A stretch of DNA of 64,000 nucleotides. Source: Planctomycetota bacterium. GTDB taxonomy: Bacteria > Planctomycetota > UBA1135 > GCA-002686595. Location of the stretch: assembly GCA_002862085.1 (NCBI GenBank), contig PKCK01000011.1:1-64000 (forward strand), in the 5' to 3' direction. Below, in pieces: positions 17,845 through 24,815 of the stretch. How positions within the stretch are numbered: position 1 is the stretch's first letter; the number at the start of each line of letters is the position of its first letter. The notes below the pieces were generated by a model that saw only the letters and a list, made by a program, of their open reading frames with translations, made no database searches and was not told the origin of the DNA. A program made the position numbers and the translations under genes.

Positions 17845-18750
17845 TCAGGAGCGTCGAACCACGAGGGCGCGCACGGCGAGGAGGGTGCCCGCGCAAACCG
17901 CGACCGTCCCGCTGGCGTCGATGCTCGAGCCGAGGACGGCCGGCGCGGTGCGCGTGGCCAGGAGGTATCCGGTGACGCCCGCGAAGAGGCCGTAGACGCA
18001 GGAACGCGTCACGTATCCGAGGAGGGTCCGCGCGTCCAGGCGCGCCGCGGCCGCCGGGCAGGTCAGGAGCGCGATCACGAGGATGGAGCCGAGCGCCTCG
18101 AAGGACGCGACGATCGCGGCGGCCTGGAGGATGAAGAGCCCCGCGCGCAGGAGGCGCGGGGCGGTGCCTCGCGTGCGTGCGTAGGTCGGATCGAAGACCG
18201 CTGCCTCGAGCGGGCGCCAGACGAGGGCGAGCAGGGCGGGGACCGCCGCGAAGAGAGCACCCAGCAGCAGGGTCTCGCGCGGCAGGGTCGCGAGGACGGC
18301 CGGTCGCAAGAGGTCCACCGCCGTGGCCGGCGGGGTCCAGAACAGGAGCTCCAGCTGGCCGCTCAGCACGCAGTCGAGGTCGAGGTCGACGTTGCGCGCC
18401 CCGCTCGTCTCGACGAGCAGGACCCCGAGAGCGAAGAGCGTCGTGAAGACGATGCCGATGGCGACCGTGGGATCGAGGCGGCCGAAGCGTCCGATGGTCC
18501 CGATCGCTCCGCTGGCGACGACCGCCGCCCCGAGGGCGCCGAGGAGCATGGCGGAGGGGGCGCGGGTCCCGGTGACGAGGAACGCGATCACGAGGCCGGG
18601 GAGGACCGAGTGGGCGACCGCGTCGCCGATCATCGCGCGCCGCTCCAGGACGAGGAACGCGCCCAGGAGTGCCAGGGTCCCCGCCGCGAAGGTCACCGCG
18701 AGCAGCGGCGCGAGATCGAGGGTGAGGAAGGTACGAAGAGCCTCGGACAT
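17845..18750 (-). CDS. Metal ABC transporter permease
   Basis: ABC-3 permease; LLGAFLVLERRAMIGDAVAHSVLPGLVIAFL. Confidence 0.88.
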   Translation of the reverse strand: MSEALRTFLTLDLAPLLAVTFAAGTLALLGAFLVLERRAMIGDAVAHSVLPGLVIAFLVTGTRAPSAMLLGALGAAVVASGAIGTIGRFGRLDPTVAIGIVFTTLFALGVLLVETSGARNVDLDLDCVLSGQLELLFWTPPATAVDLLRPAVLATLPRETLLLGALFAAVPALLALVWRPLEAAVFDPTYARTRGTAPRLLRAGLFILQAAAIVASFEALGSILVIALLTCPAAAARLDARTLLGYVTRSCVYGLFAGVTGYLLATRTAPAVLGSSIDASGTVAVCAGTLLAVRALVVRRS

Positions 18751-18757
18751 GGATGCT

Positions 18758-19729
18758 TCAGGCTCCCCGTGCGTCGCGGGCGCGGAGCGCCGCGGCGTTC
18801 GCGTCGCGTCGCAGTCGCGCTCGCCTGAGGAGCCCCGCGATGACTCCGCGCTCCGGCGCGGCCGCGAGGCTGACGACGAACAGCGCCGACGCGGTCAGGA
18901 CGATCAAGGCACCCGTCGGCGCATTCGGGGCCGCGGCCGAGAGTGAAGTGCCGGTCCACGCGCTCAACCCTCCGATGCTCGCGGAGAGCGCCAGGAGCGG
19001 CGGCACGCGGCGGGCCCACAGGCGCGCCGTCGCGGGCGGGATCACGAGCAGCGCCACGATGAGCAGCATCCCCACCGCCTGCATCCCGGCCAGGGTGACC
19101 GCCGCGACGAGGGCTGCGAGGAGCGCTTCCATGGCGGGGACGCGCAGGCCCGTCGTCCGGGCGTAGCGGTCCGAGAAGGCGATCGCGGTCAGCGGTTTCG
19201 AAGCGACCAGCGTGATGGTCAGGGTCAGGGCCGCCAGGATGCCCATGGTCCACGCGTCGGCGCGCGTCATGGACGCTGCCGAGCCGAAGATCAGATCGTC
19301 GAGTCCCGCTTGCCCGGCGCCGCCGGCGCGGCGGGCGATGGAGAGCAGGCAGATGCCGAGACCGAAGGAGGCGCTCGACACCGCGGCGGTCGCCGTGTCC
19401 GCGGTGAGCCGGGTGTTGCGCGTCAGCCAGCCGATCGCTCCGACCGCGAGAGATCCGCTGACGCCGGCGCCGAGGATGAGCACCTCCATGGATCGTGGCG
19501 CGCTGCCCTCGGCCGTGAGCGCGCCGCGGACGAGGAACGCGGCCGCCACGCCGGCGAGGGACGCGTGGGCGAAGGCGTCGGCCACGAGGGACTCCTTGCG
19601 GAGCATGCTGAACACGCCGACGGTCCCCGCCGCGACGCCGAGCAGGATCGCCGCGCAGAGCACGACGTTCGTGTTGAAGCCACCGCCGAAGGAAAGGGCG
19701 CGCAGCCACTCCGCGACCAGCTCGCCCAT
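18758..19729 (-). CDS. Metal ABC transporter permease (second copy)
   Basis: VGVFSMLRKESLVADAFAHASLAGVAAAFL; AVGMLLIVALLVIPPATARLW. Confidence 0.88.
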   Translation of the reverse strand: MGELVAEWLRALSFGGGFNTNVVLCAAILLGVAAGTVGVFSMLRKESLVADAFAHASLAGVAAAFLVRGALTAEGSAPRSMEVLILGAGVSGSLAVGAIGWLTRNTRLTADTATAAVSSASFGLGICLLSIARRAGGAGQAGLDDLIFGSAASMTRADAWTMGILAALTLTITLVASKPLTAIAFSDRYARTTGLRVPAMEALLAALVAAVTLAGMQAVGMLLIVALLVIPPATARLWARRVPPLLALSASIGGLSAWTGTSLSAAAPNAPTGALIVLTASALFVVSLAAAPERGVIAGLLRRARLRRDANAAALRARDARGA

Positions 19730-19742
19730 GCCCGGGAGGTCG

Positions 19743-20501
19743 TCAGACTCCGGCCGCGGCCGCGCCGACGTCGCCGCGCCAGGTGGCGAGGGCCTCGGCG
19801 GCAGGACCCTGGGCCCTCACGGTCCGGTCGAGCACGAGGGCGTCGTCGAAGTGCCGCGCGACGGATCCGAGGTCGTGGTGCACCGCGATCACGGTGCGGC
19901 CCGCCTCCGCGAGGCGGCGGAGCTCGGCGGTGAGCACGGCCTCGGTCCCCTCGTCCACGCCCGCGAAGGGCTCGTCGAGGATCACCAGGTCCGCGTCCTG
20001 GGCGAGGGCGCGCGCGAGGAACACGCGCTGCTGCTGACCGCCGGAGAGCTCGCCGATGGGCCGCGCGCCCAGCTCGGTCATGTCCACGCGGACGAGCGCG
20101 TCCTCCACCCGCCGCTCCGTCTCGCGGCGGCCAGCGCGCGTCGGGACGAGCCAGCCCGGCAGCCACCACGCGGCGCCGCGCATCGCTCCCATGCGGACCA
20201 CGTCGCGGGCGGTCACCGGGAAGTCCCAGTCGACGCTCTCGCGCTGGGGGACGTGCGCGACGCGGTCGCGCACGGCGGAGAAGGGCTGGCCCCAGAAGCG
20301 GACGTCACCCGCGAGGCGGGGCACGAGGCCGAGGGAGGCGCTCAACAGCGTCGTCTTGCCGGCGCCGTTGGGGCCGACGACCGCGGTCATGCTCCCCGCA
20401 CGGACCGACCAGTTGACGTCCCAGAGCACGGGCTCGTCCCGGTAGGCGACCGAGAGGGCCGTCACCGCCAGGGGGACGCCGGACTCCTCGCGGAGGATCA
20501 T
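19743..20501 (-). CDS. Metal ABC transporter ATP-binding protein
   Basis: VVGPNGAGKTTLL, IGELSGGQQQRVFLARALAQDADLVILDEPFAGVD. Confidence 0.93.
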   Translation of the reverse strand: MILREESGVPLAVTALSVAYRDEPVLWDVNWSVRAGSMTAVVGPNGAGKTTLLSASLGLVPRLAGDVRFWGQPFSAVRDRVAHVPQRESVDWDFPVTARDVVRMGAMRGAAWWLPGWLVPTRAGRRETERRVEDALVRVDMTELGARPIGELSGGQQQRVFLARALAQDADLVILDEPFAGVDEGTEAVLTAELRRLAEAGRTVIAVHHDLGSVARHFDDALVLDRTVRAQGPAAEALATWRGDVGAAAAGV

Positions 20502-21454
20502 TGCGCGGGACCCTCCGGCTCGGTCACGGAGGCGGCGTCGCCGCCGAGGGCGTCCGCGATCGTGCGGGCGTTGTGCCGGATCATCGCGGCGTAGGTGCGC
20601 GCTTCGCCGGGTGCGTCCGAGTGGAGCACGCCGCCGATGGCGACGGTGTGCCCGCGCGAGCCGGCGCCCTCGACGAGGGCCCGCACGTTGCGCTCGGACA
20701 CGGTCGACTCGAAGAAGACCGCCGGCGCCTCGCGCGCGACGATCAGATCCACGAGCTCCTCGATGGCCCGGAGCCCGGCCTCGCTGGCCGTGGACACGCC
20801 CTGGACCGCGTGAACCTCGACGCCGTAGCGGCGGCCGAAGTACGCGAACGCGTCGTGGGCCGTGATCAGGACGCGCGAGCGCTGCGGGATGGTGGCGACG
20901 ACAGCCTCGACCTCGGCGTCGAGGGCGAGCAGTTCGCTGCGGAGCGCGTCCGCGCGTTCGCGAGCGCCGTTCACCGGGAGCGTGGACGCGATCACGTCGC
21001 AGCACCGCGCCCAGAGCTTCACGTCCATCCACAGGTGTGGGTCGACGACGCCCTCCGTCTCGCTCGAGAGCTCGGTCTCGTCCGCGATGTTCGGGGCGAG
21101 GGCGACGACCGTCGTGCCCCCGTCCGCGATCTTCGCGAGCGTCGGCTCGAGATAGGCCTCGAGCCCGTACCCGCTGTGGAACACGACCGAGGCGGCGGTG
21201 ATCGCTGCCACGTCGTCGCGCGTCGGGCGGAAGAGGTGCGGGTCGACGTCGGCCCCGAAGAGCACCGTGACGTCGGCCTCCTCACCCGCGATCTCGCGCA
21301 CGAGGTCACCGACCATCGCGGTCGTGCAGACCACGCGCGGCCGGACGTGCTCACCGGCCTCGACCTCTCCAGCCCCGCAGCTCCAGAGGAGGAGGCTCAG
21401 CGGCGCGGCGAGGGCCCAGGCGAAGGGTCGGAGGGTGGAGGTCAGGCGAGGCAT
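20498..21454 (-). CDS. Metal (Mn/Zn) ABC transporter substrate-binding lipoprotein
   Basis: Lipobox LLWSC; VVCTTAMVGDLVREIAGEEADVTVLFGADVDPHLFRPTRDDV; DPHLWMDVKLW; FFESTVSERNV. Confidence 0.93.
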   Translation of the reverse strand: MPRLTSTLRPFAWALAAPLSLLLWSCGAGEVEAGEHVRPRVVCTTAMVGDLVREIAGEEADVTVLFGADVDPHLFRPTRDDVAAITAASVVFHSGYGLEAYLEPTLAKIADGGTTVVALAPNIADETELSSETEGVVDPHLWMDVKLWARCCDVIASTLPVNGARERADALRSELLALDAEVEAVVATIPQRSRVLITAHDAFAYFGRRYGVEVHAVQGVSTASEAGLRAIEELVDLIVAREAPAVFFESTVSERNVRALVEGAGSRGHTVAIGGVLHSDAPGEARTYAAMIRHNARTIADALGGDAASVTEPEGPAQ

Positions 21455-21494
21455 GGGGAGGACTCGGTCGTCCCCGAGGATAGTTCGTGCCGTC

Positions 21495-21518
21495 GGCTAC
21501 GCTGTAGCCTTGGCTACA
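21495..21518. promoter_or_regulatory. Candidate MntR operator: three alternating half-sites GGCTAC-GCT-GTAGCC-TT-GGCTAC with palindrome TGTAGCC-TT-GGCTACA
   Basis: Exact inverted repeats seen in the mntR-importer intergenic gap, 41-64 bp upstream of the substrate-binding gene start. Confidence 0.65.
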
Positions 21519-21562
21519 TTTTTGACCGCGCGGTTCGCCCGGCGACCCCCCAGGCCGTCCTC

Positions 21563-22429
21563 TCAGGCCCTCGTGTCGCGTTCCGAGACCGCGTCGAAGA
21601 CCTCGAGGGTCCGCTCGGAGACGTGGTGTTCGACGCCCTCCGCGTCGATCTCGGCGGCCTCCTCGGGCACCCCGATCGCGCGCAGGAACCGCAGCACTCT
21701 CTCGTGCCGCTCCCGCGAGCGCGCAGCGAGCTCCTCCCCGAGGGGGGTCAGGGTCACGGGCCGATAGGGCTCGGTCTCCACGTAGCCGTCGCGCTGGAGT
21801 CGTCCCACGGTCCGGCTGACGGTCGCGTGGCTGACGCCGAAGCGGCGGGCGAGGTCGCCCACGCGGGCCGAGCCCGACTCCGCGATGAGGTCGCCGATCG
21901 CCTCGACGTAGTCCTCCGTGACCTCCGACGCGTGGGCCCGGCGGACCCGCGCGAAGCGCTCGGGGTCGGAGGCCGCGGGAGTCGGCGGCGCCGCGTCCGG
22001 CGTCCGGCCCCGCGCAGCCACGAAGCGCGCGAAGGCTGCCAGCGTGTCGGGCCCGACGTGGTGCTCGATGCCCTCTGCGTCCTGCTCCGCGACCTCCGGT
22101 TCGACCCCGAGGCTCAGGAGCAGCGCCAGGACCTGTGCGTGGCGCGCGCGCGATGCTGCGGCCATCGCGCGGCCCTCCTGCGTCAGCTCGATCGAGCGGT
22201 AGGGCTCGGTCTCGACGAGGCCGTCGCGCTGCAACCGCTCCACCGTCCTGCTGACGGTGACGTGGCTCACCCCGAAGAGGGCAGCGAGGTCCCGGACGCG
22301 CGCCTCGCCGTTCTGCGCGAGCAGGTCGTCGATCGCCTCCACGTAGTCCTCCGCCGTCTCGCTGCGGTTCGCACTGCGGACGGCCTCGAAGCGGCGGGCG
22401 TTCTGCTCGTCGGCGGGCGTGGGCGTCAT
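21563..22429 (-). CDS. Tandem (two-module) MntR/DtxR-family metalloregulator
   Basis: Two consecutive MntR-like modules: TAEDYVEAIDDLL..FGVSHVTVSRTVERLQRDG..RARHAQVL..DAEGIEHHV and VTEDYVEAIGDLI..FGVSHATVSRTVGRLQRDG..RERHERVL..DAEGVEHHV. Confidence 0.9.
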   Translation of the reverse strand: MTPTPADEQNARRFEAVRSANRSETAEDYVEAIDDLLAQNGEARVRDLAALFGVSHVTVSRTVERLQRDGLVETEPYRSIELTQEGRAMAAASRARHAQVLALLLSLGVEPEVAEQDAEGIEHHVGPDTLAAFARFVAARGRTPDAAPPTPAASDPERFARVRRAHASEVTEDYVEAIGDLIAESGSARVGDLARRFGVSHATVSRTVGRLQRDGYVETEPYRPVTLTPLGEELAARSRERHERVLRFLRAIGVPEEAAEIDAEGVEHHVSERTLEVFDAVSERDTRA

Positions 22430-22518: not shown

Positions 22519-23454
22519 ATGAACTACCGACAGATGGGCCGGACGGGTCTCCGGCTGAGCAGCGTCTCCATCGGAGGCTGGTTGACCTTCGGTGGCACCG
22601 TGGACGAGCGCGGGACCCGCGACATCCTGCGCGCGGCCGTGGACGAGGGCGTCAACTTCATCGACCTCGCCGACGTCTACTCCAAGGGCGCCTGCGAGGC
22701 TGCCGTGGGGGCCTGTCTCGGGGAGTTCCGGCGCGAGGACCTCGTCGTGTCGAGCAAGGTCTTCGGGCGCATGGGCGACGGTCCGAACGATCGCGGCCTG
22801 TCTCGCAAGCACATCATGGAGAGCGTCGACGCGTCGCTGCGCAGGCTCGGCACGGACTATCTCGACATCTACTTCTGCCACCGGCCCGACCCCGAGACGC
22901 CCCTCGACGAGACGGCGCGGGCCATGGACGATCTCGTCCGGCGGGGGAAGGTCCACTACTGGGGCACGAGCGTCTGGCCGGGCGAACAGCTCCAGGACGT
23001 CCACGATCTCTGCGATCGTCGGGGCCTCTACGCGCCCCTGGTCGAACAGCCGCAATACAGCCTCGCCTTCCGCGGGATCGAGGCGGACTCGCTGCCCGTG
23101 GCGCGAAGGCTCGGCATGGGCGTGGTGACGTGGAGCCCGCTCGCGGGGGGACTGCTGACCGGCAAGTACGACGAAGGCGTTCCCGAGGGTTCGCGCGGCG
23201 CCGACACGAGCTGGCTCGACGACGTCTTGAACGACGAGATGCGCGTGAAGCTGCGGGCCTTCAGCGCGATGGCGCGAGAGCTCTCCCTCGCCCCCGCGCA
23301 GCTCGCCCTGGCGTGGGTCCTGCACCAGGAAGGCGTCTCGAGCGTGATCACCGGTGCGACGCGCCCCGAACAGGTGCGCGAGAACGTCCACGCCGCCGAG
23401 GTCGAGCTCGATCCCGCCGCGCTGCGGCGCCTCGAGGAGCTCTTCCCGGCGTGA
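22519..23454 (+). CDS. Aldo/keto reductase
   Basis: MNYRQMGRTGLRLSSVSIGGWLTFG; NFIDLADVYSKGACE; LGTDYLDIYFCHRPD. Confidence 0.92.
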   Translation: MNYRQMGRTGLRLSSVSIGGWLTFGGTVDERGTRDILRAAVDEGVNFIDLADVYSKGACEAAVGACLGEFRREDLVVSSKVFGRMGDGPNDRGLSRKHIMESVDASLRRLGTDYLDIYFCHRPDPETPLDETARAMDDLVRRGKVHYWGTSVWPGEQLQDVHDLCDRRGLYAPLVEQPQYSLAFRGIEADSLPVARRLGMGVVTWSPLAGGLLTGKYDEGVPEGSRGADTSWLDDVLNDEMRVKLRAFSAMARELSLAPAQLALAWVLHQEGVSSVITGATRPEQVRENVHAAEVELDPAALRRLEELFPA

Positions 23455-24738: not shown

Positions 24739-24815
24739 TGGTACGCCCGACAGGATTCGAACCTGTGACCTTTCGCTCCGGAGGCGAACGCTCTATCCAG
24801 CTGAGCTACGGGCGC
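24739..24815 (-). tRNA. tRNA-Arg (anticodon CCG), CCA encoded
   Basis: Reverse complement GCGCCCGTAGCTCAGCTGGATAGAGCGTTCGCCTCCGGAGCGAAAGGTCACAGGTTCGAATCCTGTCGGGCGTACCA folds as a cloverleaf; loop CTCCGGA; GGTTCGAATCC T-arm. Confidence 0.95.

Follow-up and report, generated by a model that had tools for sequence, protein, structure and literature searches.

In the known MntR and DtxR repressors, two identical chains pair up on a palindrome. The locus described here raises the question of what such a repressor does when two of its modules are carried in a single chain. It lies in a 64,000-nt stretch of DNA from a Planctomycetota bacterium (the whole stretch analysed, called the window below), and a preliminary description had offered two readings of it, a covalent pseudo-dimer and a tetra-module dimer. 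The gene and its parts are as follows, in window coordinates.

21563–22429, minus strand: tandem MntR gene, starting with ATG and encoding 288 aa, kept across the genus
22013–22393, minus strand: N-terminal MntR module, aa 13–139, Mn ligands D28, E31, H97, E119, E122 and H123
22220–22276, minus strand: helix-turn-helix (HTH) of the N module, FGVSHVTVSRTVERLQRDG, aa 52–70, residue 36-equivalent His56
21959–22012, minus strand: linker, aa 140–157 (18 residues), Ala/Pro-rich, lowest confidence in the AlphaFold2 models
21581–21958, minus strand: C-terminal MntR module, aa 158–283, Mn ligands D173, E176, H242, E264, E267 and H268
21785–21841, minus strand: HTH of the C module, FGVSHATVSRTVGRLQRDG, aa 197–215, residue 36-equivalent His

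The preliminary description, which did not give the strand of the reading frame, had seen two full-length MntR units about 60% identical to each other, both with the HTH and the Mn ligands, and our analysis bears this out. The two modules are identical at 77 of 126 positions (61%), each has its HTH, and each has all six positions that match the binuclear Mn ligands of Bacillus MntR (D8, E11, H77, E99, E102 and H103; PMC6860424). Wherever the tandem sequence is complete, both of its halves match the six-ligand set. At the DNA level, a 157-nt direct repeat, 79% identical and with 435-nt spacing, lies within the gene. The Pfam models Fe_dep_repress and Fe_dep_repr_C each match the 288-aa protein twice, and the NCBIfam model NF008273 (PRK11050, MntR) matches two stretches, scoring 349 bits where the cut-off is 153. 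A standard MntR has one module per chain; two per chain were found in 9 of 9 genomes, and to judge from its sequence the tandem protein is a variant of the PRK11050 type of MntR, not a standard member.

Could the double protein be an artefact, a frameshift or an assembly error joining two adjacent mntR genes? The unusual protein length would fit this, and nothing else does. The nine genomes examined from the genus (the window genome and eight congeners) come from independent assemblies, one of them the single-contig complete chromosome CP036434 of isolate Poly30, and all carry the same architecture; moreover, the N halves and the C halves fall into separate clades. The chance of an artefact is therefore negligible, and the join that the preliminary description had kept in view can be set aside. 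The draft genome G001 has a frame break that interrupts the C half of its tandem (L014:6540–6877; G001:C7).

Other double-MntR proteins, for which the preliminary description had proposed a search, turned up in the congeners and nowhere else in the genomes and plasmid matches scanned. The tandem was not found in 28 other genera of the family (E ≤ 1e-10). A scan for close relatives across 84,980 species returned the same eight congeners as its top matches, with no tandem outside the genus among them, and the other loci fetched were single-domain. Fifty of 392 Planctomycetota genomes had a match, and the tandem occurred only in the genus. The plasmid search gave only single-domain proteins among the matches listed; matches joined there from 'pieces' are both tandem halves aligning to one single domain. 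The open-access literature searched yielded no description of a tandem MntR or DtxR, so a tandem of this family appears new, while the principle of the single-chain pseudo-dimer is already known for the TetR family (Mce3R).

When the halves were placed in a tree with 74 single-domain relatives, the N halves grouped as a clade (support 95/96), as did the C halves (95/87), and both clades lay within a planctomycete cluster. A second, larger tree agrees (N clade 100/98, C clade 96/82). Since the N halves make one clade and the C halves another, the tandem has by these trees a single origin: the fusion happened once, before the genus radiated. Two Phycisphaerales sequences adjoin the N halves with weaker support (90/83). 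The tandems fall into clade A (the window, Poly30 (L015), L013 and L014) and clade B (L016–L020). The dN/dS ratio was 0.02–0.18 in five of the six pairs compared (N halves 0.07–0.13, C halves 0.02–0.18; clade B and L013/L015 pairs), and the window versus Poly30 gave 0.27 and 0.38. By this measure both halves are under purifying selection.

The tandem mntR, presumably the first gene of its transcription unit, heads a same-strand metal-ABC (ZnuA/ABC-3) operon.

20498–21454, minus strand: ZnuA-family metal ABC transporter substrate-binding protein (Pfam PF01297, E 1.8e-62)
19743–20507, minus strand, start approximate: ABC transporter ATPase (nearest NCBIfam models MntA-type and Mn/Fe ATPases, below cut-off)
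18758–19729, minus strand: ABC-3 family metal permease 1 (PF00950, E 5.8e-54)
17845–18750, minus strand: ABC-3 family metal permease 2 (PF00950, E 2.6e-34)

A binding protein, an ATPase and two ABC-3 permeases make up the usual Mn or Zn importer set, and the operon fits metal uptake. Both Zn and Mn systems are found among the nearest NCBIfam transporter models, so it is the ligand set of the regulator that points to Mn as the metal. An aldo/keto reductase gene (window 22519–23454, plus strand) is divergent from the tandem mntR, and a stretch similar to the aldo/keto reductase region lies upstream of mntR in the other genomes of the genus. A tRNA gene is found at window 24742–24815 on the minus strand (Rfam RF00005, 69.6 bits).

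The 108-bp gap from the tandem mntR to the substrate-binding-protein gene contains the presumed operator, and a weaker candidate follows it.

21502–21519, minus strand: presumed 18-bp MntR operator, ATGTAGCCA-AGGCTACAG (inner TGTAGCCAAGGCTACA, 21503–21518)
21487–21500, minus strand: degenerate GTAGC-CGAC-GGCAC, possibly a second operator, 17 bp beyond the first, with a clear left half-site and a weak right one

A predicted MntR box is present at the same place, the gap between the regulator and binding-protein genes, in 9 of 9 genomes of the genus. Its size is the standard one of two half-sites, as one MntR dimer binds an 18-bp, 9+9 site (PMC11275975). In clade B 17 of the 18 box positions are invariant, against 5 of 40 and 8 of 40 in the flanks, and a mismatch-free copy of the box occurs just once in each clade B genome. 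A pattern scan calls the conserved palindrome after the tandem gene terminator-like, on the plus strand and thus opposite to the genes. That it is a transcription terminator and not an operator is nevertheless highly improbable: the clade B versions are asymmetric and give poor stem pairing, yet they are nearly invariant, and it was on these sequences that we rejected the terminator. Also against it, the window box has its TAGC-N4-GCTA core in common with the E. coli mntH and mntS boxes (ACATAGCCTTTGCTATGT and ATATAGCACAGGCTATAT), and boxes of the same form lie beside most single-domain mntR relatives.

The window genome has a second target, a double box with a 17-bp offset, TGTAGCGGATGCTACA-G-CGTAGCTCCGGCTACG (G000:C20:20889–20921; L094:1502–1534). 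It directly precedes the gene for a Phenol_MetA_deg-family outer-membrane protein (L094:1569–2426), a candidate for a Mn-regulated outer-membrane channel. The operon itself has only one box in Poly30, in L013 and in each of the five clade B genomes; in L014 there is a third half-site as well. Several planctomycete single-domain mntR genes also have two or three boxes ahead of them, at varying spacing (two at L065, 17 bp apart, three at L029, and two each at L073 and L067).

The two clades differ in how alike the halves are. Clade A has a box, GTAGC-N4-GCTAC, that is symmetric where it is contacted, and both recognition helices share their base-contacting residues, except that those of the window protein differ by Val/Ala at position 37. 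The helices of clade B are unlike each other: at residue 36 the N half has His and the C half Gln, and at residue 41 they have Ser and Arg, respectively. The N half reads ISHVAVCSVIERLRRDG, without the wing Tyr-Arg, and the C half reads VAQVTVTRVVARLRR. The clade B box is fixed and, at the contacted positions, asymmetric, TAATAGCAAYGGTTACAA, with the 18-bp form TAATAGCAA-YGGTTACAA in 5 of 5 genomes.

Inferring a heterodimer from operator asymmetry alone was tried and rejected, as homodimer-type MntRs of the Micavibrio group have a fixed one-base asymmetry. These single-domain MntRs of Micavibrio/Alphaproteobacteria show a fixed one-sided change, with GTAGC-N4-GCAAC boxes upstream of mntR (loci L032, L036, L054, L056, L057, L062, L068, L075, L077 and L078). 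Mild asymmetry occurs with other single-domain MntRs too, 8 of 44 His36 loci being G/T. Because asymmetry is thus not confined to the tandem, we chose to compare residue 36 with base −7. In the B. subtilis MntR–DNA structure, base −7 is met by Pro36 together with Thr40 and Val25, and bases −4/−5 by Lys41 (PMC11275975).

With an operator scan built on TAGC, His36 went with G at −7 in 58 of 66 half-sites in a first set of single-domain relatives and in 78 of 88 in an enlarged set, while other residues went with G in 0 of 44 and 1 of 42; Gln36 pairs with A or T. The enlarged set adds planctomycetes, plasmid-borne proteobacterial genes and E. coli, with near-duplicate Thalassospira rows removed. 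In it the rule for residue 36 (G for His, A/T for others) is obeyed at 63 of 65 single-domain loci, which amount to only 2–4 independent evolutionary contrasts, all of them concordant. The exceptions are both low-scoring sites: L157 has T/T with His36, and L164 has A/G with Gln36 and an A/A candidate nearby. Among the tandems, clade A pairs His/His with G/G, and all five clade B members pair His/Gln with G/A. A single G with a single A is what would be predicted for a self-folded chain in which each half takes one half-site; by the same rule GTAAC should belong to the N half of clade B and ATAGC to its C half.

The preliminary description had also looked to a structure prediction of the monomer, and this places the halves confidently. 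AlphaFold2 gave the window protein a mean pLDDT of 93.4 and a pTM of 0.88 (41-sequence alignment), and the clade B protein of L020 a pLDDT of 85.4 and a pTM of 0.80 (8 sequences), with pLDDT below 50 in its linker (aa 141–155). For two modules of 130 residues, such pTM values imply that the models predict their relative placement with confidence, and with it a fixed packing. Among solved structures E. coli MntR (2h09) is the closest, and one half matches it at TMt 0.89.

We think it likely, then, that the tandem is a covalent pseudo-dimer, one chain per box and one half-site per half, that represses Mn uptake. The two modules, on their 18-residue linker, would fold together like the subunits of an ordinary MntR dimer. 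Mn2+ would fill both binuclear sites, the chain closing into an MntR-like pseudo-dimer; one chain would bind the single 18-bp box that precedes the binding-protein gene; and the bound chain would block transcription of the metal-uptake ABC importer. In clade B the N half (His36, Ser41) would read GTAAC and the C half (Gln36, Arg41) would read ATAGC. What the sequences show is the architecture and its conservation, the selection on both halves, the conserved box and the correlation of residue with base; the interface within the chain, the stoichiometry at the box, Mn as effector and repression as outcome are what we infer. Of the two options in the preliminary description, this is the better supported and the tetra-module dimer the less: throughout the genus a box with the size of two half-sites occupies one and the same place, the divergence of the clade B helices is mirrored by that of the half-sites, and the models from both clades place the halves confidently relative to each other.

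In the tetra-module arrangement, two chains with four DNA-binding domains would cooperatively grip two boxes, or a box and extra half-sites. Such an arrangement would suit the two boxes 17 bp apart at the second target of the window genome, the window operon, where a second box keeps a strong left half at that offset, and the third half-site of L014, and there is a precedent in the double-TetR repressor Mce3R, a homodimer of pseudo-dimers (PMC11667970). Against this stand the seven genomes with one box at the operon (Poly30, L013 and the whole of clade B). Moreover, pairing needs no tandem protein, because single-domain MntRs have paired boxes as well, 17 bp apart at L065 and 19 bp apart for E. 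coli MntR. We regard the tetra-module arrangement as unlikely on the whole; a dimer of pseudo-dimers on paired boxes is possible. Less likely again is a parallel homodimer, with N–N and C–C pairing across chains, one pair reading the box and the other sensing metal or having some other role. The N half of clade B has lost the wing Tyr/Arg and Arg41, as a domain losing its DNA contact might, but a parallel homodimer would favour a symmetric box, whereas the clade B box is asymmetric in 5 of 5 genomes, its halves matching the N- and C-half rules, and AlphaFold2 places the halves of one chain relative to each other with high confidence, which implies a fixed packing.

If the covalent pseudo-dimer is the right reading, the two clades may be stages of one process. 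We lean towards the view that fusion let one sub-clade co-diverge its DNA-binding halves and their half-sites, from the symmetric fusion of clade A to a specialised pseudo-heterodimer in clade B, whereby a palindromic switch became an asymmetric, directional one. A natural single-chain MntR makes testable some questions that are closed to homodimers: whether metal has to occupy both sites, whether a single active DNA-binding domain is enough, and by what route symmetric operators become asymmetric. As the genus holds both the symmetric and the diverged stages, the joint change of protein and half-site can be studied with few natural proteins and boxes. Engineered manganese sensors that use asymmetric sites could also be built on the tandem as a scaffold.

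Known systems resemble the tandem in part. Chlamydia YtgCR has a DtxR-like regulator within a longer fused protein, a repressor joined to a permease and not a tandem of repressors. E. coli MntR (PDB 2h09; NF008273/PRK11050) is like each half in fold, ligands, TAGC-N4-GCTA core and control of Mn uptake, but it has one module per chain and is a homodimer, whereas the tandem has two per chain and, in clade B, DNA contacts that differ between them. Bacillus subtilis MntR (PDB 9c4c, 2f5c) has in common with it the DtxR/MntR fold, the six Mn ligands and one dimer per 18-bp, 9+9 site (PMC11275975); unlike the tandem it is a homodimer of 142-aa chains on inverted-repeat sites. A precedent for the principle is Mce3R of Mycobacterium tuberculosis, a double TetR repressor with two units per chain that forms a pseudo-dimer on a nonpalindromic operator, one of a kind of which 204 putative members are predicted in actinomycetes (PMC11667970). 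Mce3R differs in belonging to the TetR family, in not being a metal sensor and in fusing two distinct TetR sequences (PMC11667970), and its asymmetric operator has a possible counterpart in the clade B box only, that of clade A, including the window, being symmetric.
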